Positions 14,399-42,288 of a stretch of DNA of 46,947 nucleotides are shown here, piece by piece; positions within the stretch are counted from its first letter, which is position 1, and each line of letters opens with the position of its first letter. Source of the stretch: a virus. Below the pieces are notes generated by a model. That model ran no database searches. It saw only the letters and a list, made by a program, of their open reading frames with translations, and had not been told where the DNA came from. Both the position numbers and the translations under genes were made by a program. Where the stretch lies: positions 4,490-51,436 of the IMG/VR virus record IMGVR_UViG_3300012012_000763. One strand, given 5' to 3'.

Positions 14399-14626
14399 AT
14401 GTCAGACAGAGTTTATACCAGTTCAAAACCTGCTCATGTAAAAGTAAAGGCAGGTGGAATGAATGTAGATACAATGATTAAGGTTTTTAAGCGTAAAGTT
14501 AAAGAAGCCGGTATTCTTGAAGAATATAAAAATCGTATGGAATATATTAAACCATCGAAGAAAAAATCTGAAAAACGAAATGCTGCTATAAGAAGACAAC
14601 GTAAAATTGACGTTGAAAACATTTAA
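14399..14626 (+). CDS. rpsU: ribosomal protein bS21 homologue
   Basis: 75 residues. HVKVKAGGMNVDTMIKVFKR, then KVKEAGILEEYKNRMEYIKP and a Lys/Arg-rich tail, align without gaps to bacterial S21 (pattern ...FKR..KEAG.L.E...R..Y.KPS...K). The Shine-Dalgarno TAAGGA overlaps the previous stop 8 bases before the ATG. bS21 sits at the 30S platform near the 3' end of 16S rRNA. Phage-encoded bS21 is known from several uncultivated and pelagic phages. Here it lies between prohead genes and 10 bases before an ADP-ribosyltransferase-like gene, so it should be made late. Replacing or competing with host bS21 is the likely role. Confidence 0.85.
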   Translation: MSDRVYTSSKPAHVKVKAGGMNVDTMIKVFKRKVKEAGILEEYKNRMEYIKPSKKKSEKRNAAIRRQRKIDVENI

Positions 14627-14636
14627 TGGAGATAAA

Positions 14637-15821
14637 ATGGACTTTTCTAGTCTTACAAAACTAATCCGCAAAGAAAAACGGAAAGTTAATGAAAATCTGG
14701 AATGGTCTTTTTTATTATATGAAGATGAAGAAAAACCAGCAAGTGAAGATCCAGATAAAATGCTTGTGGTAAATAAGGAAAGTGGAAAATCCTATTACAT
14801 AAGTAAAAAGAGTTTTGATCCAGCAAAGCATCAAAAATCTGCACCCAAAGAAAAGGCGCCAAAAAAAGAAGAAGAAGAACCTGCAGCAGAAACTCCAACA
14901 GAGACACCAGCGGAAACTCCTGCTGAACCTGCAGCTGAAACTCCGGCAGAAACGCCAGCTGAACCTGCAACTACAACTGAACCTGCAGCTGAAACTCCTA
15001 CTACTGCAACACCAACGGAAACACCAAAAGAACCAAATGAAGAAAAAACTGGATTAAAAACTGTTGGTTTCTTAAAACCAATAGAAGTAGAGAAGCTGGA
15101 TAAAAAAACAAGAAACTTATATCCAAATACAAGACAAAATTTATTGCAATATGATTTTGAAGATGCATTGAATATGTATGACGATAATCTTGACAAAAAG
15201 AAAGATTACAAAAAATTATACAAGAGAATTGAAACTATTGCATTGGCAAAACATAGTTTAATAAGTAAAATGGAATTAGATGCAGAAACTATATTTGCAC
15301 TAAAACATTTTTATATCAATAGTTTACGGATAAACAATATATTAAATTATGGACAACTAATGCCGTATTATGAGATAATGAAACAAATAAAGTTGGGAAA
15401 ACCAAAAGAAGGCGATAAACGAGAAAAAGAATATAATAGTGCAAAAAATTCGGTAACTATAATAAATTTAGATAGTGCCTTCGATGAAGGATTGCAGAGA
15501 TTAGACTATCCAATCGTTTCTTATCGTTCAGTAGAAAACAAAGATGTATTAGAATACTTTATTAACGAGAGAACATGGATAGATAAATCATTTGTAACAA
15601 CATCACTCAACCCGTTGATTGCAGAGAAAGGAAAAAAACGTATGCCATTATTTGAGTATTACATTCCAAGTAATACATCTATTTTAACTTTACCTTGTCA
15701 TTCAAATGATTATTGCCACGAAACAGAAGTTACACTTCCAAGAAATTGTAGATATACAATAGAAGGTTTTAATGAAGAAAGAAACATTTACAAAGTATTA
15801 GTGGAACAAAACTATGCCTGA
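14637..15821 (+). CDS. ADP-ribosyltransferase-fold protein, Alt-like candidate
   Basis: 394 residues from ATG 14637 (GGAG 6 bases upstream); the TTG at 14607 is not a likely start. Residues ~1-75 form a charged N-terminus, ~76-135 an Ala/Pro/Glu/Thr repeat linker (PAETPAE, PAAETP), ~140-285 a helical domain and ~290-394 the catalytic fold. That fold shows the R-S-E signature: YRSV (R297), VTTSLNP (T321-S323) and HETEVTLP (E362, E364, an ExE loop). These features match C3/VIP2/Alt-type mono-ADP-ribosyltransferases. In T4, Alt is packaged in the head and injected to modify host polymerase. Being in the prohead operon, this may be the counterpart. LYE-D (27-30) could be a head-protease site. The target is unknown. 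Confidence 0.7.
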   Translation: MDFSSLTKLIRKEKRKVNENLEWSFLLYEDEEKPASEDPDKMLVVNKESGKSYYISKKSFDPAKHQKSAPKEKAPKKEEEEPAAETPTETPAETPAEPAAETPAETPAEPATTTEPAAETPTTATPTETPKEPNEEKTGLKTVGFLKPIEVEKLDKKTRNLYPNTRQNLLQYDFEDALNMYDDNLDKKKDYKKLYKRIETIALAKHSLISKMELDAETIFALKHFYINSLRINNILNYGQLMPYYEIMKQIKLGKPKEGDKREKEYNSAKNSVTIINLDSAFDEGLQRLDYPIVSYRSVENKDVLEYFINERTWIDKSFVTTSLNPLIAEKGKKRMPLFEYYIPSNTSILTLPCHSNDYCHETEVTLPRNCRYTIEGFNEERNIYKVLVEQNYA

Positions 15822-29186: not shown

Positions 29187-29675
29187 ATGGCTGAATTACT
29201 CGATCCCAATGAAATTTTTTTCACACCGTTTGAGCCAAAATTACAGAACCGATTTATCATGTATATTGAGGGAGTTCCTGCATATTTGGTTAAAGGTGCT
29301 GGTAGACCAAACATCAGTTTTAATCCGATCACACTTGACCACATCAACGTCAAACGTAAGGTGAAGGGAAAGGGTGAATGGCAAGATATTACAATCAAGT
29401 TATACGACCCAATAGTTCCATCTGCTGCTCAGGCAACAATGGAATGGGTGCGTCTTTCACACGAATCCGTAACAGGTCGTGATGGTTATTCTGACTTCTA
29501 CAAGAAAGACATAACACTTCATGTTCTCGGTCCTGTTGGCGATAAAGTTGAAGAATGGACACTTAAAGGTGCTTTCATTACTGCAACAACATTCGGTGAA
29601 ATGGATTGGGCAAACGATGCGTTTGTTGAGATTTCTCTCACACTCGCATATGATTATGCTATCCTCCAATACTAA
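29187..29675 (+). CDS. tail tube protein (T4 gp19-like)
   Basis: 162 residues, the usual length. GGAG lies 7 bases upstream. LQNRFIMYIEGVPAYLVKGA, GRPNISFNPITLDHINVKRK, WQDITIKLYDPIVPSAAQAT and FGEMDWANDAFVEISLTLAY are standard gp19 blocks. It stacks as hexameric rings to form the DNA-conducting tube inside the sheath. Order sheath then tube is as in T4. Confidence 0.93.
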   Translation: MAELLDPNEIFFTPFEPKLQNRFIMYIEGVPAYLVKGAGRPNISFNPITLDHINVKRKVKGKGEWQDITIKLYDPIVPSAAQATMEWVRLSHESVTGRDGYSDFYKKDITLHVLGPVGDKVEEWTLKGAFITATTFGEMDWANDAFVEISLTLAYDYAILQY

Positions 29676-29714
29676 TACTATTTGTATTATCATATTGAAA
29701 TTGAATTAAAATAC

Positions 29715-29741
29715 GGGTATACTGATTTTTTCGGTATACCC
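29715..29741 (+). other. hairpin abutting a late-promoter motif
   Basis: GGGTATAC (29715-29722) pairs with GTATACCC (29734-29741), 11-base T-rich loop. No T-run follows the stem, so it is not a classical terminator. Its last C is also the first base of the late motif CATATTTATT. Confidence 0.6.
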
Positions 29742-29750
29742 ATATTTATT
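29741..29750 (+). promoter_or_regulatory. late-promoter motif
   Basis: CATATTTATT, 49 bases before the ATG at 29800; shares its first base with the 3' arm of the preceding hairpin. Confidence 0.65.
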
Positions 29751-29799: not shown

Positions 29800-30561
29800 A
29801 TGTCAAAAATTCCAACCGGCTATAATGTAGCCAATGAAGAAGGATTATTGTATTCCGAAGGCCATCCTCTTGCAGAAGGTGTAATTGAAATGAAATACAT
29901 GACTGCAAAAGAAGAAGATATATTAACATCACAGAACTTGATTAAACAAGGTGTGGTATTAGACAAATTGTTTGAGTCTTTGATTGTAACTCCAATCAAC
30001 TATTCGGACTTGTATACGGGCGATAAGAACGCAATTATGGTTGCTGCTAGAATTTTGGGTTATGGTAAAGATTATACCGTTCAGATTGATGATCCATTTT
30101 CTCCAGGAAACAAACAACAAGTTACAATAGATTTAACTGAAATTGAGCACAAGGAGGTCGATTACAGCTTGTTTCAGAATGGAAAGAAAGAGTTTGATTA
30201 TGAGTTGCCAATATCAAAAAGAGTGGTTACATTTAGGTTAATGACACATGGAATGGAGAAAGAAGTTCAAAGTGAAATAAAATCTATGAATAAAACTCTT
30301 GTAAAGACCGGTATTGATAGGGAACTTACAACAAGACTCAAACATATTATTACATCAGTTGATGGTGAAACTGGAAGAGCTACTATAAATAATTTTGTTG
30401 ATAACGAATTATTTGCAGCTGATTCAAGGGCGTTAAGGTCATACATAAAAGAAATCTCACCCGATTTGGATATGACGTTTACGTTTGTTTCGGATATAAC
30501 AGGTGAGGTAAAGGAGATAGACATACCCGTTGAGGTATCATTTTTTTGGCCTGGAACCTGA
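29800..30561 (+). CDS. tail assembly chaperone / T4 gp26-like baseplate protein
   Basis: 253 residues, start behind AGGA. VIEMKYMTAKEEDILTSQNL, IKQGVVLDKLFESLIV and YTGDKNAIMVAARILGYGKD match the T4_baseplate (gp26) family. Its position between tube and tape measure is that of the gpG-type tail assembly chaperone in other phages. The end of the frame contains seven T at 30541-30547 and a second open frame overlaps there, suggesting a long frameshifted product. It probably coats the tape measure during tail assembly. Confidence 0.75.
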   Translation: MSKIPTGYNVANEEGLLYSEGHPLAEGVIEMKYMTAKEEDILTSQNLIKQGVVLDKLFESLIVTPINYSDLYTGDKNAIMVAARILGYGKDYTVQIDDPFSPGNKQQVTIDLTEIEHKEVDYSLFQNGKKEFDYELPISKRVVTFRLMTHGMEKEVQSEIKSMNKTLVKTGIDRELTTRLKHIITSVDGETGRATINNFVDNELFAADSRALRSYIKEISPDLDMTFTFVSDITGEVKEIDIPVEVSFFWPGT

Positions 30562-30784
30562 TTACCGATTAGGATTACATGAAGAAATTTTTTCTCTATG
30601 CTATTATGGTAGAGGTGGTTTTAGTTGGGATGAAGTTTACAATCTTCCAATACATTTGAGACGATTTTATATCAATCAAGTTAAAAAAGTATTAGAGGAA
30701 AAGAATAAGGCAGAACAAGCAGAAGTTTCAAAACACAAAGTTGCTATGCCTACATTCAGTAAACCATCAACACCGAGACGATAA
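30530..30784 (+). CDS. frameshift extension of tail assembly chaperone (gpGT-like / gp51 position)
   Basis: This frame is open from 30521 to 30784 in the +1 (equivalently -2) frame relative to the gp26-like gene, overlapping it by about 40 bases. It has no ATG or GTG near its start; the only candidate is TTG 30530, with GGAG 14 bases away. The coding content is clearly conserved-looking (GLEPDYRLGLHEEIFSLCYY, FSWDEVYNLPIHLRRFYINQ, then a Lys/Glu helix). The T7 run 30541-30547 lies inside the overlap and lets ribosomes pass from TCA-TTT-TTT to GGC-CTG. I infer a fusion protein of about 328 residues; independent TTG initiation is the alternative. Confidence 0.65.
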   Translation: MRYHFFGLEPDYRLGLHEEIFSLCYYGRGGFSWDEVYNLPIHLRRFYINQVKKVLEEKNKAEQAEVSKHKVAMPTFSKPSTPRR

Positions 30785-30789
30785 ATTTG

Positions 30790-30831
30790 CGGTTTACATA
30801 TTTATAGAAGATATGTAAACCGTTTTTTATT
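30790..30831 (+). terminator. terminator containing a late promoter
   Basis: CGGTTTACATAT (30790-30801) pairs perfectly with ATATGTAAACCG (30811-30822), 9-base loop, followed by TTTTTTATTATTATT. The late motif CATATTTAT (30797-30805) occupies the end of the 5' arm and the loop. It ends the tail-chaperone unit and probably starts the tape-measure unit. Confidence 0.75.
30797..30805 (+). promoter_or_regulatory. late-promoter motif inside terminator hairpin
   Basis: CATATTTAT, 43 bases before the GTG of the tape measure gene. Initiation ~10 bases downstream would fall in the 3' arm of the hairpin, so transcripts from it would not form the terminator. Confidence 0.55.
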
Positions 30832-30848: not shown

Positions 30849-33800
30849 GTGGCGAAAGAAAACGAAGTAAAACTTGAAGCAGAACTTAAAAAACTGATGG
30901 AACAACGAGTTCAATTAGAAAAACAACTTGTTGAACAGAAAGCTAAAATGGATTCTGCTGAAAAAAAATCAATAGAAAACATAAAGAAACTTATATCATT
31001 AGAAGCAGTTCTCATGGATTCCGTAGAGAAAGAAGAAGAAGTGCGCAAAAAAATAGAGAAGATAGAAAAGGACTCCGAAGATAGAACTAAAAAAGCCGAG
31101 AAGTTTCAAAAAGAAACAAAAACCAGAACAGAAGAAAACTACAAAACACAACAAAAATCAAAAAAAACAGACGAAGAACGCGAAGAAATTGCAGATAAAA
31201 CTCTCAAACTTGCCAATGAACAAAAACAAGCAACCGTAGATATTGGCGCTCGACTTGGTATTATGAGCGATAAATCAAAAAAATATGCAGAAACGCTAGA
31301 AAAGGGTAAGGGAACAAATAGTGAAATAGCAGATTATTGGGATAAAATTGGAGACTCTATAAAAGAGGGATATAACACAAGCGGTGCATTTAAGACAAAT
31401 CTTGATGATATGAGAAGTATAAATAGTGATGTTTCACAACTGTATCAAGATTCAGTTGCACAAACTGGTTTAATAGAAAAAGGTCAAGCAAAAATAGTAG
31501 AAACTGATAAGGCAAGAGAAGCACTTGCTATCAAACGATATAATGTTGAAAATAATTTGTTAGGTTTGAGTGCAGCAGATCAAGCAACATTGATGAAGGG
31601 TATTAAATTAGAAGAACAAAGACTTGATACAATAGATGCTCAAAATAAAGTAATTGAAAAACAAAATGCAAGTCTTCAACTGATTGAGGGGACTGGATCT
31701 AAGATTGGAACCGCCATGGGTGGTTGGGTTAAAAATCTTCCAGGTGGTGAGCAGATTACAAAAATTCTTGGCATAGATAAAACAGCAGATAATATGAATA
31801 AGTCATTTACTGCTGCTATCCAAAATGGACTCAAAGGTAATTTCAAAGATGCTTTCAAAGAAGGTGCTAAAGGTCTTGGTAGTATGATTGCAATGGGTCC
31901 AAAGTTAGTTGCTGGTATGGGACTTGGTGCATTAACAGGTGGTGTTGGGTTATTAGTTGGGGGACTAAAAAAGGCATTCGGTGTATTGATGGAAGTGGAT
32001 GGGCAAATATCACAAATGGGTAAAGACTTTGCTATGAGTAAAAACGAAGCCCGTGAGTTGTATAAAAATACAGCAAGAATATCAAATGAAATGAAAATTA
32101 CTGGAATAAATTCCAAAGAAATTGCAGTTGGTATAGAAGCAGCTCAACAGGCATTCAATGGGATGGATGTTGCTGGTATGGTAAATGCTGGTAATAAAGA
32201 AATGACAAATTTTGTAAAACAAGCATCTATTCTAACTAAACAATTTGGATTATCCGGTGAAGAAGTTGCAAAAATAAAAGACTTATCCATTATTACCGGA
32301 ACGTCAATGGACAATCTTGTAAAAGATGCCGTTGGTGTTGGTAAAGGGGTAATGAATGCTAAAGAAGCAATGAAAACACTTGCAAGTGTTCCAAAAGAAG
32401 TTGCAGTTGCATTTAAGGGTTCAACCAAAGAACTTGCTGCTGCCGCTATGAAGGCAAAAATGTTGGGTATGGATCTTAAGAAAGTTAAAGATATTGGTCG
32501 TGGTATGCTTGATTTGGAATCATCTCTTACTGCAGAAATGGAAGCACAAGCATTGACTGGTAAAAACTTACAATTAGATGCCGCTAGAAGATATGCAATG
32601 GAAGGTGACATATACAATCTTCAAGAAGAATTATTAAATCAAGCCGGTTCTTTGGAGGAATTTCAAGGAATGAATGCTATTCAACAGGAGGCAATGGCAA
32701 AGGCAATGGGTATGTCTGTTGAAGAAATGACAGATATGCTTACTAACGCTGAAAAACTCAAAGAAGCAAAAATAGATGCCACTATGGCTGAAAATCTTTC
32801 AAAGATGAATGCAAAAGAACTTGCGGAGGCATCAAAGAGTGCGGCAAATGATCAACAAAAGGCATACATAGAAAAACTTGCAGCTGAAAAACGTTCCGCC
32901 AGTTTACAAGAAGCGATGGCTGATGCTGTTGAAAAATTGAAACAAAAGTTTGCTCCTGTTATTGATGCAGTTCTCGAAATAGTTGGTGGATTGGAAGATG
33001 GAGGTGAAGGTGTTTCAGTTTTCCAAAAAATGATAGATGAAATTGATATGGATGCTATTGCTGCTGGTGTAAAGGAGGCACTTCCAAAATTGATGGAAGC
33101 GGTTCAAACTTTAATGAAAAGATTACCACAAATAATAGAATTTGTTAGTAAATTAGTTGGTGGTTTCGCGGATGCAGGTGGAGCAGTCGGTGGACTAATG
33201 GGATTCATAAACCCATCAGTTGCAGGTATAGGTGCAATGGCACTTAAAGTTGCTGGACCAGGTGGTGTAGCGGCTGGTTTCAAATTAGCCGGTAAAGGAG
33301 CAATGGGTCTGTTCGATATGGTGAAGGGTCCACTAATGGATGGTATTAAAGGTTTAGCGGGTGGAGTTACTGGTAAATTGGGTGGAGCATTCGGAAAAGT
33401 TACTGAAAAGGCGGGTGCGTTTGGTTCAAAAATGAAAGATATGGTTGCAGATAAAGCAGGTGGAATGGGTGGTTCAAAAAAGGCAAAAATGCCAAAGGCT
33501 GGAAAGAAGGGTGGTGGATTCATGGATGGTATAGTTGATGCTGTAAATAAAATGGACACTAAAAAAATGATGCAAGGTGCAGCTGCTATACTAATTCTTG
33601 CTGCAGCTCTTTATGTAACTGCTAAAGCAGTTCAAGAATTTATGAAAGTTGATTGGGCTGCAATGGCAAAAGCTGGTGTTGCTCTTCTCGGACTTGCAGG
33701 TATTGCGTATTTGATGGGTAAGGCAAGTAAAGAAATGATTATAGGTGCAGCTGCTATGTTGATATTAGGTGCAGCTCTTTATGTAATAGGTCTTGCATTA

Positions 33801-35069
33801 CAATTCTTTGTTGGAATAAAATGGGAAGATATGGCAAAAGCAGGTGTTGCACTACTTGGTTTGGTTGCAGTTGCTGCATTATTAGGTGCAGCTGCTCCGT
33901 TATTCCTTGCTGGTGCAGCAGTATTGGCTGTATTATCCGGTGCTCTTCTTATATTTGGCGCCGCACTTTATGTAATAGGTGCCGCCGCTGGTTCTGTTGG
34001 ACCATTATTACAAACATTCTTTGAAGGACTAAATACAGTAATTAGCACAGTTGGTGGTGCAATCGTTGATGTCATAAATGCGATTGCTGGGGCAATATAT
34101 GGATTTATAGATAGATTACTTGCTCTTGGTGAAATGGATCCAGGACAATTATTTGGAATCGCAGGTGGTATAACAGCACTTGCTGGTGCTCTCGCTGCAT
34201 TTGGTGGTGGTAGTGGTATAGGTGCCGCATTAGAAGGTTTGGGAAGTTTATTTGGTGGTGATAGTCCATTTGATATGTTGATGACACTTGTTAGAGAAGT
34301 TGATCCATCAGGATTATTAGGAATTGCCGCGGGTGTAACTATGTTATCTGCCGGTCTGGCAATGATTGGAACAAGTCTACAAACAATAGATACAACAAAA
34401 CTTGATCAATTCAAAGAATCACTAGGTAACTTAATGCAAAGTTTAGGTGGTGGTGCAATCATGGAAGGGATTGGAAGTCTTCTTGGAGGCGAAAGTCCAC
34501 TATCAACAATGCAAAAATTGATTGCATCATTAGAACCTGAAAAACTTTCTGCTGTTGCTAAAAGTTTGTTGGAAATTTCAACATCACTTAAAACTCTTGC
34601 AGATACTATTGCTGGTATGGATGTTGAAAAACTTGGACAAGTTTTTGAAAAAATAAATCAAACTTCTACTGAATCTAAGGCATCGAAAGTAATGGATTCA
34701 ATAGTTGGCGGAATATCATCAATTTTTGGTGGTGGTGAAAAAGAAGAAGAAGGAAAGAAGGGTGCAGAATCAAATATATCAACCCCCGCAGCAACTGCAG
34801 TATCTCCGATTGGAATGCAATCTGTTTCTGCATCACCAAGTGCTATGGGAGCCGCTGCTGGTGGTGGTGTAGCCGGTCCTGCTGCTGGTGGAGTAAACAT
34901 GAGTGGAGTTGAAGGTAAGTTGGATCAACTTATTGGGTTGTTCAGTAGTATTGCAGGTCAACCAACAATTATTAAATTTGGTGATAGGTTTGTTGAAGAA
35001 ATACGTTCAACATTAGACATTAAGAAATCATATAATGTTCAAAACACATTTGGTCGTCAGGCACAATAA
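30849..35069 (+). CDS. tape measure protein (T4 gp29-like)
   Basis: 1406 residues from GTG 30849. Residues 1-140 and 200-280 are charged coiled coils. About 330-700 is a structured helical region (TGINSKEIAVGIEAAQQAFN, MSVEEMTDMLTNAEKL). Then comes a Gly/Ala-rich hydrophobic segment (~860-1100) with three related units ending in ALYV. The C-terminus is Gly-rich and then conserved (IIKFGDRFVEEIRSTLDIKK). At about 1.5 angstrom per residue this implies a tail near 200 nm. It sets tail length and is ejected before DNA; hydrophobic helices may enter the host membrane. The start lacks a Shine-Dalgarno. Confidence 0.88.
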   Translation: MAKENEVKLEAELKKLMEQRVQLEKQLVEQKAKMDSAEKKSIENIKKLISLEAVLMDSVEKEEEVRKKIEKIEKDSEDRTKKAEKFQKETKTRTEENYKTQQKSKKTDEEREEIADKTLKLANEQKQATVDIGARLGIMSDKSKKYAETLEKGKGTNSEIADYWDKIGDSIKEGYNTSGAFKTNLDDMRSINSDVSQLYQDSVAQTGLIEKGQAKIVETDKAREALAIKRYNVENNLLGLSAADQATLMKGIKLEEQRLDTIDAQNKVIEKQNASLQLIEGTGSKIGTAMGGWVKNLPGGEQITKILGIDKTADNMNKSFTAAIQNGLKGNFKDAFKEGAKGLGSMIAMGPKLVAGMGLGALTGGVGLLVGGLKKAFGVLMEVDGQISQMGKDFAMSKNEARELYKNTARISNEMKITGINSKEIAVGIEAAQQAFNGMDVAGMVNAGNKEMTNFVKQASILTKQFGLSGEEVAKIKDLSIITGTSMDNLVKDAVGVGKGVMNAKEAMKTLASVPKEVAVAFKGSTKELAAAAMKAKMLGMDLKKVKDIGRGMLDLESSLTAEMEAQALTGKNLQLDAARRYAMEGDIYNLQEELLNQAGSLEEFQGMNAIQQEAMAKAMGMSVEEMTDMLTNAEKLKEAKIDATMAENLSKMNAKELAEASKSAANDQQKAYIEKLAAEKRSASLQEAMADAVEKLKQKFAPVIDAVLEIVGGLEDGGEGVSVFQKMIDEIDMDAIAAGVKEALPKLMEAVQTLMKRLPQIIEFVSKLVGGFADAGGAVGGLMGFINPSVAGIGAMALKVAGPGGVAAGFKLAGKGAMGLFDMVKGPLMDGIKGLAGGVTGKLGGAFGKVTEKAGAFGSKMKDMVADKAGGMGGSKKAKMPKAGKKGGGFMDGIVDAVNKMDTKKMMQGAAAILILAAALYVTAKAVQEFMKVDWAAMAKAGVALLGLAGIAYLMGKASKEMIIGAAAMLILGAALYVIGLALQFFVGIKWEDMAKAGVALLGLVAVAALLGAAAPLFLAGAAVLAVLSGALLIFGAALYVIGAAAGSVGPLLQTFFEGLNTVISTVGGAIVDVINAIAGAIYGFIDRLLALGEMDPGQLFGIAGGITALAGALAAFGGGSGIGAALEGLGSLFGGDSPFDMLMTLVREVDPSGLLGIAAGVTMLSAGLAMIGTSLQTIDTTKLDQFKESLGNLMQSLGGGAIMEGIGSLLGGESPLSTMQKLIASLEPEKLSAVAKSLLEISTSLKTLADTIAGMDVEKLGQVFEKINQTSTESKASKVMDSIVGGISSIFGGGEKEEEGKKGAESNISTPAATAVSPIGMQSVSASPSAMGAAAGGGVAGPAAGGVNMSGVEGKLDQLIGLFSSIAGQPTIIKFGDRFVEEIRSTLDIKKSYNVQNTFGRQAQ

Positions 35070-35118: not shown

Positions 35119-38100
35119 ATGGCATTAGTAGACTTAAAATCGGATTTGGCTAAATACAGGTCAGAGGTTTCAAAAGAGGGCAAGAGTTCTCCAGAAGCAT
35201 CATCTGCTACTAGTGACAAAAATTTTGCAACTAACCAACCAATTACAGATAGTTTATACAAAGAAGTTCCTAATATAAAAAAACCAAAAGTTGTAAACTT
35301 AACAAGTCAATTGGGAAAAACAAAACTCGATGAAATAAAAAAACCAAAACCAAGTGATGTTACTAAAAAATTAGGCACAACAGAATTAGATAATACAAAA
35401 AAACCAAACAAAGTTGATTTGGTTGGTAAATTGGAATCATCAAAATTTGATGATATAGTTATACCATCAGATAAAAGAGTCGAACTTCAAGATAGACTTT
35501 CATCTACAAAACTAGACGATATAGTTCAAACTCCTGTTGAAAATTTATTGATAAACAGTGTATCTGCATTATCGCCATCAGTTAGTGATTCAAGACTACC
35601 TCTTGCATCCGGAATTGGTTTGGATCAAATAGAGTCTAAATTTTCAAAAATATCACAAACAAGATTTCAAAGTAGATTAAGTGAATCGGAAGTTGAAGTA
35701 AGTAGAACAACACCGGGTCAAAACAATAATAGATCTGATATTGAACTCAATAGACCTGCACAAACATTTGAGAGAGAAGATAGTTCCCCAAATATATCAA
35801 GAAATATAAATGATGCATCCAATAATATAACAAATCCAGGAACAGTAATAAACGTTCCGCAACAATCATTTGATAGAACGGACCAGGCAGTTGTAATCAA
35901 TACTGATATATTATCACCTATTGGTAATATAATAAACCCATTGATTCAAATAACAAGACCACCACAGTTTTTTGATAGAACAGAAAATACAGTTGAAATA
36001 ACAAAGAATGTAAATGATGCGGTTGATAATATAATAATACCAGAAATAGAACCTATAATTCCTCCGTTGAGTTTTAGTAGACAAGAACAATCGCCAAATA
36101 TAATAACAGATACTATAAAGGAAGGTCTTGTTGTAAATCCAGATGTTACTGTGTTAAGACTTAATCAAGGAACTATCCACACTAACGATGGTAGTGAGTT
36201 TAATATAGACGGCACACCAATAAAATTTATTGGAACATCGGAACTTGAAAAAATGATAGAGACCGATGATAAGAGTCCAATTAGATATTCAGGAACAACA
36301 ATCCATGATACCGATAGAAGTCAATTAAATTTAGATGGAATAACACCAACATTTCCAGGCGGAAGATATGAGAAATCGATAAATTCATTGTATTCTATTT
36401 TAGGATTACAAGAAGTAAACTTTTTCTCAAATCAGTTTGCAATAGGATTTAATCAAAGACAACAAATTGGTGATAGTAAGTATATTGGTTTTTCACAATT
36501 TGTATGGACAGGTGGATCAGATGATGGTCCGTTTACAAATGCATTTGCTGATACAAATGGTAGAGGATTTCAAACATTTGTTAATCCAGCAGAATCTCTT
36601 TACCAACCAAATTCTTCTCAATATGATTTTACAAAAATAACTGGTGTAAATTACTTTGATGGTAATAATAACAATACTCTTGGTGGATTTACTATATTTG
36701 CACAACCGCAAATAACAGAATATAAAACTGAAACATCATTTTTAGGATGGCAAGGAAATAGGTTAGGTGCTCCAACTGTAAACTACTTTGATAATATATT
36801 CTTGAATACATCAGATGGATTTACAAAATTTGCTTTACAAGGTCAATCTGATTATATTCCAGATTCATCTATATTTGATTGGGATGGAAACAAACAACAA
36901 TCGCCAACTGTAAACTATTTCGATCAAGCTGGTGTAAATTCTAATATGGGATTCCATAACTTTGCGGGGTTTATGGATTCAAAATATGTTCAAGATTCTT
37001 CCACATTTGTGTGGGTAGGAAATTCCACACAAAATGCACCTGCAGTTAATTATTTGGATCAATTCAAACAATTTACATCAACTGGTTTTCACGTATTTGC
37101 TCAAAAGTATGATTCCAAATATCTAAAAAACATATCAGAATTTATTTGGGATGGAAACAGACAAGATGCACCAGCAGTAAATTATTTTGATTTAACGGCG
37201 GGAAAAACTACTGATGGGTTCACAACATTTGCTCAACCATACGAATCTTTGTATGTTCCAGATTCATCAAGATTTACTTGGGTTGGAACAAGAGATGATG
37301 CTCCTTTTGTAAACTACTTGGATATACCAGTAAAAAATGCAACTTCTGGATTTGATATATTTATTCCATTTTTAGAAACAAAATACATAAATGAATCTTC
37401 AATACATACATGGAATGCAAATAGACAAGATGCACCTGTTGTTAATTATTTTGATATACAGAACCAATATGCTAATAGTGGATTTGATAAATTTCATGGA
37501 CTGTATGATACACGATATGTAAAAGATTCTTCACAGTTTGATTTTGATGGAACGAAACAAAATGCTCCCGCAGTTAATTATTTTGATTTGTTGGGTAGAT
37601 TTACAAGTGTTGGATTTCATACATTCCCTTCATTCAAGGAATCAAAATATATTAAGGATTCTTCTGAATTTGATTGGAATGGTTTAAGAAATGATGCACC
37701 TGCAATAAACTATTTTGATTTACAATCAACTCATACAAATGCAGGATTTTATACATTTGCCAAAGAATATGAATCCAAATACATAAAAGAATCATCACGG
37801 TTTGATTGGGATGGAAATAGGTCTGCCGCACCCGCAGTTAATTATTTTGACTTGCCTGATAAATTTACAAAAACAGGTTTTCATATACTTGCACAAAAGT
37901 ATGATTCAAAGTATATTAAAGAATCTTCTGAATTTGATTGGGATGGAAGTCGTAGTGATTCTCCAGAAGTAAACTTTTTTGATATTCGCAAAAGAGTTAC
38001 TACTGCCGGTTTTCATAGACTTGCGGAAATATATGACACGAAATATGTTCCAGAAATATCTATATTTGATTGGAACGGTAGTCGTGATGAAGCTCCACAA

Positions 38101-41100
38101 GTAAATTATTTTGATTTGAAAGGTAAGTTTACAACCATAGGTTTTCATAGACTTCCCGAATTATACGATAGTAAGTATGTAAAAGATTCTTCTGAATTTA
38201 CATTTACTGGAAAGTTTCCAAAAGCTGGCACAGATTACTTTGATAAAGAGAAAATAAATCAAACAGGATTTACTCTAAACATACAACCAAAGGGGAAAAG
38301 TAAACCAACTGGAACAGAGTATTTCCATGAGAGTTCATTCTATACATTTAAGGGTGGAAGACCAGGTAATCCATTAGAATCGGTAATTGATTTCTTTGCC
38401 AATACAAATCAATCCGGTTTCACTATGGATATTAAGAGAAACGAAGGTTTACCTCCAACAGAATATGTTGCTGATTCTTCAAGGTTTGATTTTGACGGTA
38501 GTAGACCAAAACCACAAAGTTTCTTTCCAGATAGTAACCAAACTGGATTTACTCTTGATATTATGGCAAAAGGTAGTAGTAGACCTGGAACAGAATACAA
38601 GACAGAATCTTCTATATTTGATTTTGACGGTGGTAGGCCTGCTAAACAAAGTTTCTTTCCAGATGATAACCAAGGTGGTTTCACTATTGATATTATGCCA
38701 AAGGGCGCAGGTAATCCAGATACGGAATACATAAATGAATCTTCAAGATTTGGTTTTGCAGGTTTAAGACCGACTGGTATAAATTATTTTCCAGATAATA
38801 ACCAAAGTGGTTTCTCAATAGATATAATGCGAAAAGGTAGTGGAAGACCACTAACAGAATACTCAACTGAATCATCTGAATTTGCTTGGAAAGGATCCAG
38901 GACCGGTGCACCAAGTAATAATTACTTTGGGTTATACAGAACACCAACTGGTAAACAATATATTGATGTTCAGCAAAAAAACAATACAACACAAGCCGGT
39001 AGAGGTTTCCAAACATTCTACACGGATAAAACAAAAACAAATTATCAATCTGGATATTCAATACACTCAACCGAAAGCGGACCTAACAAAATTAAATTTG
39101 GTGGGTTAGATACTCCAGTTACAAACTTCTTTGGTTTTTCTCCGGTAAAACGAGACGGTTTCTTACCGAAGATGTCAACAAATGATGGAACTCTTTATCC
39201 AATAATCAATCCAACATTAACATATAATTTAGATGATGGTGGAAGACTTGCGGTTTCTAATGCTCGTGCTTCCGGAGGAGTAACAACTGTTAAAGGTGAA
39301 GAATTTGCACCGTTATCTTTGGGTAAACGTCCTTGGACACAACCAGGAACTCTTGCTTCTTTGGAGAATCAAGTTCCAAATATAACAATAAATGATTCAA
39401 CACATCCGTATTATGTATCAAGTAGAACAGTATTACCAAAAACTGCAGGTGCTTACAATAAGAAGTATGAAAGAACCATGCGAGATAATAGACAAATTAA
39501 CGGAAGTTATTTGTATGGATATTCTGAAAATGGTGGGCAATTAAATTTACAATACAGAAAGTTTCAATTAGATACGGATTCATATAATTCAAGTGGGTTT
39601 AGACAGGATCCTTATGTTCTTCGTGGTATTCAAATAAAAGATGTTGTTAAGAACGAAAGATGGGGTAATTCAAGATTTCCTAGCGGATCTGTAGATTTTG
39701 TTTCAAAAGGTGGGTATTCGGATCAATTTAGTGATATAAATGCGTTAGATGTAAAACGAATTGATTTGTGGTTGAAAAGTCCTCGCGGTCAAAAATGGGA
39801 AACATTACAAACACAATTATATGACAATAATCCATTCGTTGATACACTCAATGATTGGGATAATCCTGGCACTTTGTCTTCTCCAACGGCAAAGACAAGA
39901 ATGTATAATTCAGACTCATTACTTAATGCAATACGTGATAATACATTAAGGGGTCGTGCTATTCGTATTCGTCATGGCGATAAACCAAGTTCTAATAATC
40001 TTGATGACTTCGATTATTATGAAAGAGTTGTTAAGAAAATGAATCCTTCTGCAGATAATCAATTTGGTAATAAAATAGATGTTATGAAATTCCCAAGAGA
40101 GTCATCAAATGGTGGAACTATATTATCATCTGCAATACAAAAGACAAGTAATGTATATTCTGTTTACAAATATAATAGATTGATTGCTCTTTTATCCGAA
40201 TTGATACCATCTGCATTTGTTCCTATAAATTCAAAACTTCCGGCTGCAATATCAAGTGCACAAAAAGAAAGGGGCTCTAAAATTTATAGATTGAGTGGTT
40301 TAGGTGGACCTAATTCTGGAACTGATCCAAATGGTGAAACCATAATAAATAGAGCCAGTCATCCATTTATGATTCATTATGATACGTCTGGAATTTTACC
40401 AGAATCATATCCATCAACAGCAAAAAGAGAAACTTGGTTTGGTCCTAAAACAAAAACCGGTGATTCTGCAGAAGACGAAGCCGGAACAAATAATACCTAT
40501 TCGGGACGATTAGAAAAACAATATAGAGAATCATCAAATACCTTTGATGGTTTAATGACTGCTCTATCATATTTGGTTAGTGGTTCAACTTTGTCTGGAA
40601 AAGAAAGTCAAGAATATCCTGGTGGTAAAACTAATCCTGATAATTCTGCTTTTATTCAACCAAGTGCATATAAGTTAATTCAACAAAAAGATCCGTTTAC
40701 ACCAAGACCTATTGCTTATATTGATAGAACCCGTGCAAACATTGCAGGTGATACCGATATTCAATCAACAATGCCAATACAATTACCAGATGTATTAAAA
40801 CAAATACCAACTGGACAAACACAAGCAGATGCACCGATTAAACAGTATGCTGCGGTTGCTTACGGAAAACTTAAAAAGATTCCACGTGGAGATGCAAACC
40901 GTTCACATGACTATAATGATTTTAGACATGATATTGAATGGGGTGACAAAAAGAAAACATTTTCTACTGATCCTGCTGTAATAGATTACAAGACAAATAA
41001 TTTGGAAGATAAGTTTGGTTTTGGTAATCCTGGTAAAGTTGGTGCAGATAGAAGTAAACCATTCAGAAGTAATATAAAATACAATGGTGGTAAAGTTGTA

Positions 41101-42288
41101 AAAAAACAAGGTGATGGGTATGAGTTTAGAGGAGACCGTATAAACATAATAGATTTCAAAAAATGGAGAGATCCTGTCAAACTAATGAATGATGCAGACG
41201 TATATGAACTTAATGATACAGAAATTCCAGGTAAAAAAGATTTAATAACATTTTATTTTACAAGCACACAATTATCGGGTAAAGGAGCAACCGGCAAAGC
41301 GGCTGAAGCAATAGTTTTTAGAGCAGCATTTGATAGCATAACTGACAATCACAAACCAAGTTGGAGTCCTCAAATGTATATGGGTAGAGGGGATCCAATT
41401 TACTTATACGGTTCTTATGAAAGAGATGTTAGTTTTGGATTTACTGTTCACATTGGATCTCGCGATGAACAGGCGGCAACGTGGCGTAAATTGAATTATC
41501 TTGCATCATGGACTGCTCCAGATTATAGTAGTGGAAAATTTAGATCCCCAATATGCCGTTTGAACATAGGGCATCTATTCAGAAAGACGCCTGGATTCAT
41601 AAATTCGTTATCATATACATTTGATAATGTTGGTGGAACTTGGGAAACTGGACACTTGAAAGAAGATAAGAACTATAATAATGAAGAAGCAAAACCAGGC
41701 GTATTACAACTACCAAAAACAATACAGGTTGCAGTTGGATTTACTGTCATAGGTAATTATCGTCCTGAATGGGGTGGTGTCATGTATTCATTGTATGATG
41801 ATATTAACGGTGATGGTTTAATGCCAGCAATATCGTCAAATGATGAAAGAATAAACTTCTTCCGAACAAATGATGGTGATGCTAAACCACCAGCAGATGA
41901 AGATCCAACAAGAGAAGCAGACTTAAAACCATTTGAGGACATTAAAGACGGCGATGGATTATCAGATGAAGACTATAAGAAAATGGGATATGTTAAAGTT
42001 CCTGTTAAACAAAAAGTTAGAATAGAAAAACCAGGTGGTAAAGACGATGAATTTGAAGAAAAGGAAGAAACTGTGTACACCTGGCTGCCTGCAAGTCAGC
42101 AAGAATCATTTGAAAAGAATAGAGCTAGAGACGAGGCGTTAGACGCTGCGGACGCGGAAGAACAGAAGAAATATGCAGCAGATACCAAAGCTTATGAAGA
42201 AGCTGAAGCAAAGAGAATCGCAGATGAAACTGCTAAGAAAGCTGCTCAAGATGCTGCTAAACAAGCATCAAATAAAAATCCCCCTTAA
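35119..42288 (+). CDS. giant repeat-rich baseplate/tail protein
   Basis: 2389 residues, largest gene in the window; AGGAT precedes the ATG. N-terminus (residues ~55-140) has four ~22-26-residue repeats of the form KKP...L...LD.I. Residues ~210-340 hold four ~45-residue repeats around (R/V)PPQ.FDR.(D/E). Residues ~450-1280 contain about 19 repeats of 44 residues (SS.FDWDG.R..AP.VNYFDL, then GFH.FA and Y.SKYIK). The C-terminal ~400 residues before an acidic/Ala-rich tail look like a conserved baseplate domain (SWSPQMYMGRGDPIYLYGSY, FGFTVHIGSRDEQAATWRKL). Position after the tape measure matches T4 gp48/gp54, the tube-initiating baseplate proteins. The repeats probably form a long fibrous or stacked-beta extension. 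Confidence 0.65.
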   Translation: MALVDLKSDLAKYRSEVSKEGKSSPEASSATSDKNFATNQPITDSLYKEVPNIKKPKVVNLTSQLGKTKLDEIKKPKPSDVTKKLGTTELDNTKKPNKVDLVGKLESSKFDDIVIPSDKRVELQDRLSSTKLDDIVQTPVENLLINSVSALSPSVSDSRLPLASGIGLDQIESKFSKISQTRFQSRLSESEVEVSRTTPGQNNNRSDIELNRPAQTFEREDSSPNISRNINDASNNITNPGTVINVPQQSFDRTDQAVVINTDILSPIGNIINPLIQITRPPQFFDRTENTVEITKNVNDAVDNIIIPEIEPIIPPLSFSRQEQSPNIITDTIKEGLVVNPDVTVLRLNQGTIHTNDGSEFNIDGTPIKFIGTSELEKMIETDDKSPIRYSGTTIHDTDRSQLNLDGITPTFPGGRYEKSINSLYSILGLQEVNFFSNQFAIGFNQRQQIGDSKYIGFSQFVWTGGSDDGPFTNAFADTNGRGFQTFVNPAESLYQPNSSQYDFTKITGVNYFDGNNNNTLGGFTIFAQPQITEYKTETSFLGWQGNRLGAPTVNYFDNIFLNTSDGFTKFALQGQSDYIPDSSIFDWDGNKQQSPTVNYFDQAGVNSNMGFHNFAGFMDSKYVQDSSTFVWVGNSTQNAPAVNYLDQFKQFTSTGFHVFAQKYDSKYLKNISEFIWDGNRQDAPAVNYFDLTAGKTTDGFTTFAQPYESLYVPDSSRFTWVGTRDDAPFVNYLDIPVKNATSGFDIFIPFLETKYINESSIHTWNANRQDAPVVNYFDIQNQYANSGFDKFHGLYDTRYVKDSSQFDFDGTKQNAPAVNYFDLLGRFTSVGFHTFPSFKESKYIKDSSEFDWNGLRNDAPAINYFDLQSTHTNAGFYTFAKEYESKYIKESSRFDWDGNRSAAPAVNYFDLPDKFTKTGFHILAQKYDSKYIKESSEFDWDGSRSDSPEVNFFDIRKRVTTAGFHRLAEIYDTKYVPEISIFDWNGSRDEAPQVNYFDLKGKFTTIGFHRLPELYDSKYVKDSSEFTFTGKFPKAGTDYFDKEKINQTGFTLNIQPKGKSKPTGTEYFHESSFYTFKGGRPGNPLESVIDFFANTNQSGFTMDIKRNEGLPPTEYVADSSRFDFDGSRPKPQSFFPDSNQTGFTLDIMAKGSSRPGTEYKTESSIFDFDGGRPAKQSFFPDDNQGGFTIDIMPKGAGNPDTEYINESSRFGFAGLRPTGINYFPDNNQSGFSIDIMRKGSGRPLTEYSTESSEFAWKGSRTGAPSNNYFGLYRTPTGKQYIDVQQKNNTTQAGRGFQTFYTDKTKTNYQSGYSIHSTESGPNKIKFGGLDTPVTNFFGFSPVKRDGFLPKMSTNDGTLYPIINPTLTYNLDDGGRLAVSNARASGGVTTVKGEEFAPLSLGKRPWTQPGTLASLENQVPNITINDSTHPYYVSSRTVLPKTAGAYNKKYERTMRDNRQINGSYLYGYSENGGQLNLQYRKFQLDTDSYNSSGFRQDPYVLRGIQIKDVVKNERWGNSRFPSGSVDFVSKGGYSDQFSDINALDVKRIDLWLKSPRGQKWETLQTQLYDNNPFVDTLNDWDNPGTLSSPTAKTRMYNSDSLLNAIRDNTLRGRAIRIRHGDKPSSNNLDDFDYYERVVKKMNPSADNQFGNKIDVMKFPRESSNGGTILSSAIQKTSNVYSVYKYNRLIALLSELIPSAFVPINSKLPAAISSAQKERGSKIYRLSGLGGPNSGTDPNGETIINRASHPFMIHYDTSGILPESYPSTAKRETWFGPKTKTGDSAEDEAGTNNTYSGRLEKQYRESSNTFDGLMTALSYLVSGSTLSGKESQEYPGGKTNPDNSAFIQPSAYKLIQQKDPFTPRPIAYIDRTRANIAGDTDIQSTMPIQLPDVLKQIPTGQTQADAPIKQYAAVAYGKLKKIPRGDANRSHDYNDFRHDIEWGDKKKTFSTDPAVIDYKTNNLEDKFGFGNPGKVGADRSKPFRSNIKYNGGKVVKKQGDGYEFRGDRINIIDFKKWRDPVKLMNDADVYELNDTEIPGKKDLITFYFTSTQLSGKGATGKAAEAIVFRAAFDSITDNHKPSWSPQMYMGRGDPIYLYGSYERDVSFGFTVHIGSRDEQAATWRKLNYLASWTAPDYSSGKFRSPICRLNIGHLFRKTPGFINSLSYTFDNVGGTWETGHLKEDKNYNNEEAKPGVLQLPKTIQVAVGFTVIGNYRPEWGGVMYSLYDDINGDGLMPAISSNDERINFFRTNDGDAKPPADEDPTREADLKPFEDIKDGDGLSDEDYKKMGYVKVPVKQKVRIEKPGGKDDEFEEKEETVYTWLPASQQESFEKNRARDEALDAADAEEQKKYAADTKAYEEAEAKRIADETAKKAAQDAAKQASNKNPP
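36470..38950 (+). repeat. about 19 tandem 132-bp (44-residue) coding repeats
   Basis: Divergent tandem repeats within the giant baseplate gene. Units 3-13 share (F/W)DWDG-R--AP-VNYFD; units 14-19 are a variant with FDFDG-RP---SFFPD and GFT-DIM-KG. The period is 44 residues in both classes. DNA identity between units is modest, so the array is old and under protein-level selection. Confidence 0.75.

Follow-up and report, generated by a model that had tools for sequence, protein, structure and literature searches.

Genes and Features of the Locus

The window, i.e., the whole stretch of 46,947 nucleotides under study, harbors on its plus strand a tail tube gene of the T4 gp19 family (29187..29675; Pfam PF06841, 1.2e-6; phrog_4542, 8e-28), an open reading frame of 253 aa (ORF1, 29800..30561), a second frame that overlaps its end and stays open to 30784 (ORF2), and a gene for a tail tape measure protein of 1406 aa (30849..35069). 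The latter was assigned from a match to phrog_4372 (7.6e-6) and from its position, which is as in Microcystis phage Mel-JY01, the Flavobacterium immuto phages, and phage SP-15. With sheath and tail tube genes upstream and the tape measure gene downstream, ORF1 occupies the place between tail tube and tape measure that is characteristic of frameshifted chaperones of the G/GT type. It starts with ATG, ends with TGA, and is present in a single copy on the 51-kb virus fragment containing the window.

An earlier sequence-only reading had described a gp26-like frame ending at 30561, an overlapping, conserved-looking second frame to 30784 without ATG or GTG, and a run TTTTTTT at 30541-30547 in the codon phase TTT-TTT-TGG. 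All of these coordinates proved exact. ORF1 matches PF12322, the T4 base-plate family, with 30.3 bits and thus above the gathering score of 24.5, and phrog_150 with 1.8e-9; PF12322 is found at E ≤ 0.01 in 25 of the 35 members of the ORF1 family. We annotate ORF1 as a putative short tail assembly chaperone (TAC-N, 'G'-like) of the T4 gp26/gp51 family.

The T run forms the first part of the proposed shift site TTT TTT TGG CCT (30541..30552), and the base 5' of it (30540) is A. Relative to ORF1, ORF2 is the +1 frame, which is accessible by a +1 or a −2 slip. Its post-shift part (30548..30784; 78 aa, GLEPDYRLG...) is the candidate C-terminal extension (TAC-C, 'T'-like, gp51 C-terminus), an assignment drawn from the homologous +1 frame, hhalign, and an AF2 model. 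Translation through a +1 shift gives a proposed fusion, TAC-NC, of 327 aa (29800..30784). Before the conserved part of ORF2 there is no ATG or GTG in the window; a TTG at 30530 offers the sole potential start there, without a visible Shine-Dalgarno-like sequence. Rfam and tRNA scans of the window gave no matches.

The structures of ORF1 and ORF2 were modelled apart (AF2). For the ORF1 model (pLDDT 87.5), the best match in BFVD is the hub subunit of SP-15 (TM 0.82), and among viral models the hub subunits of T4-like phages are closest. In the PDB, the two top-ranking matches are both to 2OB9, the tail assembly chaperone of HK97, though they are weak (E 0.59 and 0.98); a PDB sequence search with the fusion protein gave no match. 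ORF2 is modelled as three helices (pLDDT 81), and a fold search of this model in the PDB gave no meaningful match.

Relatives and Conservation of the Proposed Shift Site

Both frames were found by tblastn, in one copy each, in Mel-JY01, the immuto phages, and the huge phage LR756508, and in all of them the ORF2 match is +1 with respect to ORF1. Mel-JY01 and immuto are complete relatives, and each part is single-copy there. Scans of viral contigs gave about 180 loci, and the related loci, about 190, were grouped at 80% amino acid identity into 54 clusters; statistics refer to the 47 core +1 clusters. Two phages at a greater distance, the Bacillus phage SP-15 and GXN1 (labelled as Streptococcus agalactiae), also have versions of the +1 type. 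The GXN1 record, PQ819873.1, lists S. agalactiae as host and pond water as source and is sparsely annotated; its chaperone is closest to those of Bacillus phage SP-15 and Listeria phage LIS04. CxxC pairs, which are absent from the window protein, occur in ORF1 of GXN1 and of locus L173 and its relatives, and suggest a zinc ribbon inserted in the chaperone.

Across the about 190 related loci, no other stretch is as strongly constrained as the shift site: conservation averages 1.83 bits over its positions 0-11, compared with 0.44 upstream and 0.70 downstream. The predominant variants are TTT TTT TGG CCT (117 loci), TTT CTT TGG CCT (35), and TTC TTT TGG CCT (14), followed by TTT CTA TGG CCT (4) and a few singles. 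Where the second codon of the site encodes Phe, it is TTT in 38 of 38 cases. The proline codon of the site is CCT in all 47 clusters, whereas CCT accounts for 33% of prolines at other places (p=2e-23, an overstated value, as are all p-values here, since clusters were counted as independent). This constraint bears on translation of the new frame more than on slipperiness, because part of it stems from the Leu codon (CTN) there. Conservation of the T run in relatives, which the sequence-only reading had proposed as a check, is borne out: within 35 kb of ORF1 homologues, 35 of 37 T7 runs lie exactly at the site. A stop in the 0 frame follows two or four codons past CCT in 46/47 clusters.

Signals that might stimulate the slip are less apparent. 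A downstream stem-loop gave no signal above control (mean z −0.78 vs −0.70), and among the clusters examined there is no clear Shine-Dalgarno stimulator just upstream of the site; Shine-Dalgarno matches of three bases exceed the expected number (32 vs 18.9), whereas longer matches do not. Given that neither a conserved downstream RNA structure nor a clear Shine-Dalgarno stimulator was seen, slip efficiency could be low.

Selection on the Second Frame

Nearly all relatives have a homologous +1 frame, with tblastn E-values down to 1e-52 among the fetched loci, and its reading frame appears conserved far beyond chance. Changes in ORF2 are in excess at third positions (1228 vs 514 and 316), the pattern of a frame under purifying selection. 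Protein similarity in this frame starts at FFGL, at the T run, and in several clusters a +1-frame stop lies three to five codons 5' of the site. Moreover, nine of the 47 clusters have no ATG, GTG, or TTG upstream of ORF2 or in its first 20 codons. A conserved second frame that overlaps the first and has no start of its own is a hallmark of chaperones of the G/GT type.

The sequence-only reading had named relatives with an ATG for the second frame as the case that would speak against it. Such relatives exist: in loci L184 and L188, the ORF2 homologue lies in another frame, with an ATG 2-5 bases past the ORF1 stop. Here the sites have decayed to TTC TTG TAT CCT and TTC CTT TGG CCA, and in the tree both loci are nested within the immuto-like +1 group. 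By this placement they are derived, having gained an ATG for ORF2 and lost the shift site, and they favor the frameshift reading precisely because the site was lost where the ATG appeared.

Direction of the Proposed Slip and Alternative Explanations

For every site variant, re-pairing was tabulated for slips of +1 and −2. A +1 re-pairing is possible at one of two codons in each variant (UUU_U; CUU_U; UUC_UUU_U; UUC_UUU_CGU), the CTA variants (TTT CTA TGG, 4 loci) needing a slip one codon earlier, on UUU_C. The set is in good agreement with established or proposed +1 signals: CUU_U is the shift site of RF2, and UUU_U takes this role in a minority of RF2 genes (PMC5009743). A further +1 motif, UUU_CGN, has been reported and was proposed for haloarchaeal virus chaperones (PMC7230728). 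The window site carries a shift codon of the RF2 type, with UGG rather than a stop codon in the A site.

A slip of −1 finds no slippery heptamer X XXY YYZ in the window, where A precedes the run. Among the clusters, T stands at this position in 1/47, where the encoded amino acids would lead one to expect 25.3; for a complete lack of T, the calculated probability is about 6e-18. Since T there would create T TTT TTT, its avoidance excludes the −1 heptamer T TTT TTN.

The sequence-only reading had left open a slip of +1 or −2. The fused frame stands, while of the two directions the site variants favor +1. A −2 ribosomal frameshift, known for phage Mu (PMC5009743), would reach the same frame with one extra Phe, and TTT TTT T permits perfect re-pairing for it in 34 of 48 cluster representatives. 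A slip of the Mu type, however, would require that the P-site tRNA can re-pair two bases back in all homologues, which is not the case here: in TTC TTT TGG (2 clusters, 14 loci) and in TTC TTT CGT of GXN1, a −2 slip is ruled out because tRNA-Phe would land on UCU. It would also leave the RF2-like CUU_U and the UUU_CGU variants unexplained as a set. We therefore regard −2 as improbable and +1 as the most likely direction from the site alleles.

Two further explanations dispense with a ribosomal slip altogether. ORF2 might be a separate gene, read from a non-AUG start or through coupling of its translation to the stop of ORF1. The TTG at 30530 would allow this in the window, and an ATG at or just past the stop is found in L184, L188, and the Vibrio phages D506 and 207E48.1. 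Yet the clusters without any such codon, the onset of +1-frame conservation right at the T run, and the loss of the site where an ATG appears make this very unlikely. RNA polymerase slippage on the homopolymer of seven could in turn yield mixed mRNAs; against it, the same frame layout is kept with broken runs (TTTCTTTGG in 35 loci, TTCTTTTGG in 14, TTTCTATGG in 4), and selection prevents growth of the run to T8. Because of these interrupted runs in homologues, transcriptional slippage was rejected, and we give it next to no credence.

The comparison thus reveals how the frames are laid out, that they have homologues, that selection acts on either frame as well as on the site, that site and recoding were lost together, and that every variant is compatible with +1. 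We consider it very probable that a programmed +1 frameshift at UUU_UGG yields a short and a 327-aa tail assembly chaperone from one start, and comparative evidence strongly supports the frameshift that the sequence-only reading had placed in a gp26-like chaperone, located between the genes for tail tube and tape measure. In cells, most ribosomes would read ORF1 to its stop and produce the short form. With UGG (Trp), presumably decoded slowly, waiting in the A site, a minority would slip, the peptidyl-tRNA-Phe moving one base forward on UUU_U. These ribosomes would continue with GGC CUN in the +1 frame and add the helical C-terminal domain of 78 residues, giving the fusion. If the roles are as in lambda gpG/gpGT, the short form would coat the tape measure protein and the long form would recruit tail tube subunits.

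Relation to T4 gp26 and gp51

The sequence-only reading had noted that T4 uses separate genes for gp26 and gp51. This holds true and can be refined. T4 gp26 spans positions 14-235 of phrog_150 and T4 gp51 positions 13-280; gp51 has a further match to phrog_634, which is the short 'gp51' found in KVP40 and cyanophages. By these matches, T4 gp26 and gp51 are paralogues, gp51 being the 'long' form, composed of a gp26-like domain and an in-frame C-terminal part; T4 appears to have replaced recoding by gene duplication. The window-type ORF2 family aligns to gp51-type C-termini at 94.9% in hhalign, with 20 shuffled decoys reaching at most 2.1%. The Mel-JY01 fusion matches phrog_150 through position 274 of 282, the window fusion alone only to 234. 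Profile comparison thus indicates that window-type ORF2 is homologous, if remotely, to the C-terminus of T4 gp51.

A group of homologues that includes those of KVP40, cyanophages, pf16, and Aeromonas 65 has ORF2 in the −1 frame, preceded by T TTT TTY, and −1 recoding is our prediction for this KVP40/cyanophage type. Some of these −1-type homologues also carry an ATG near the ORF1 stop, and in the Vibrio phages D506 and 207E48.1 the ORF2 ATG overlaps that stop. T TTT TTY at the gp26 end was located at 4800-4830 in L088 (KVP40), at 4670-4700 in L091 (Bellamy), and in L193-L200 and L203, where it is a probable −1 heptamer; the short 'gp51' (phrog_634) in the −1 frame of these loci is annotated as a separate gene or was missed. 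The chaperone tree, in which T4 and L172 sit on long branches, separates the −1/T4 side from the +1 side with 4 mode changes versus a shuffled mean of 17.0.

Taken together, these observations point, tentatively and with slightly less than even confidence, to gp26/gp51 as one homologous gene pair with four ways to short and long forms: +1 on UUU_UGG in the window clade, −1 on U UUU UUY in KVP40 and cyanophages, stop-start ORFs, and duplication in T4. The base before the shared Phe-Phe T run would act as a selected switch of direction, being T in −1 lineages and a base other than T in those +1 lineages whose run is intact. The +1 site would function while a sense codon occupies the A site, and without an obvious stimulator.

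Comparison with Known Systems

The window shares with lambda gpG/gpGT the location between tail tube and tape measure, a short and a frameshifted long form, and a slip near the end of ORF1. In contrast, lambda slips by −1 and the window by a proposed +1, on a protein of the T4 gp26 family. Xu, Hendrix, and Duda reportedly described tail assembly chaperone frameshifting of the lambda type in 2004 (cited in PMC10885494). With T4, the window shares the protein family, and gp51 is built of two parts in the way of the proposed fusion; T4, however, has two separate genes, short and fused, the window one gene with recoding. KVP40 and cyanophages resemble it in a homologous ORF1, a homologous C-terminal part, and a T-rich Phe-Phe junction, but their ORF2 follows in the −1 frame behind T TTT TTY, whereas the window clade is of the +1 type and avoids that first T. 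Bacterial RF2 (prfB) shifts by +1 on CUU_U, or on UUU_U in a minority of species, as at the sites of the window clade; it differs in having UGA instead of the sense codon UGG in the A site, a strong Shine-Dalgarno stimulator, and an autoregulatory role. For chaperones of HF1-like haloarchaeal viruses, a +1 slip on UUU was likewise proposed (PMC7230728), there at TTT-CGC and in archaeal viruses as against UUU_UGG_CCU in the window; GXN1 has UUU_CGU.

T4-like tail chaperones are said to have been identified by Vladimirov, Gautam, and Davidson in 2022 (Virology 566:9; cited in PMC10885494 and PMC12846349). The link between T4-like phages and frameshifted chaperones that the sequence-only reading had drawn is supported, yet for this reason not entirely new. 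Frameshifting in tail chaperones is classical, −1, −2, and +1 all being known, and a 2016 review names T4 as an exception to G-T frameshifting, which is widely conserved in other cases (PMC5009743). A passage of PMC10885494 describes separate short and fused chaperone copies in some T4-like phages, and one of PMC12846349 poly-T −1 signals in other T4-like phages. Frameshifted chaperones, also in T4-like phages, are already known, and it is the +1 variant on the gp26/gp51 type that appears to be new: no description of UUU_UGG_CCU or of a +1 chaperone in the window clade was found in the papers searched, while Vladimirov et al. 2022 may mention +1 cases.

Our findings offer an explanation for the two similar hub-assembly genes of T4, which appear to be unlinked equivalents of a frameshifted short/long pair that a large clade of T4-like phages has retained. 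The 54 clusters, with several shift-site alleles and one lineage of recoding loss, constitute a natural data set on +1 versus −1 slippage on a T run. They also correct annotation: in Mel-JY01, immuto, and SP-15, ORF2 is either overlooked or listed as a gene of its own.

Further Observations in the Window

In the gap that separates ORF2 from the tape measure gene, a repeat resembling a hairpin, CGGTTTACATAT...ATATGTAAACCG, with a T run behind it (30789-30831), looks like a terminator; a similar hairpin lies 3' of ORF2 in Mel-JY01 (L001, 6985-7022). An inverted repeat GGGTATAC...GTATACCC with an internal T run is located between the tail tube and chaperone genes (29714-29750), and SP-15 has an annotated terminator at the matching position. 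Downstream of the tape measure gene, an ORF of 2389 aa (35119-42288) has no Pfam match. Among the virion genes, 14607-15821 reveals weak similarity to Alt-like RNA polymerase ADP-ribosyltransferases (phrog_802, 6.5e-6).
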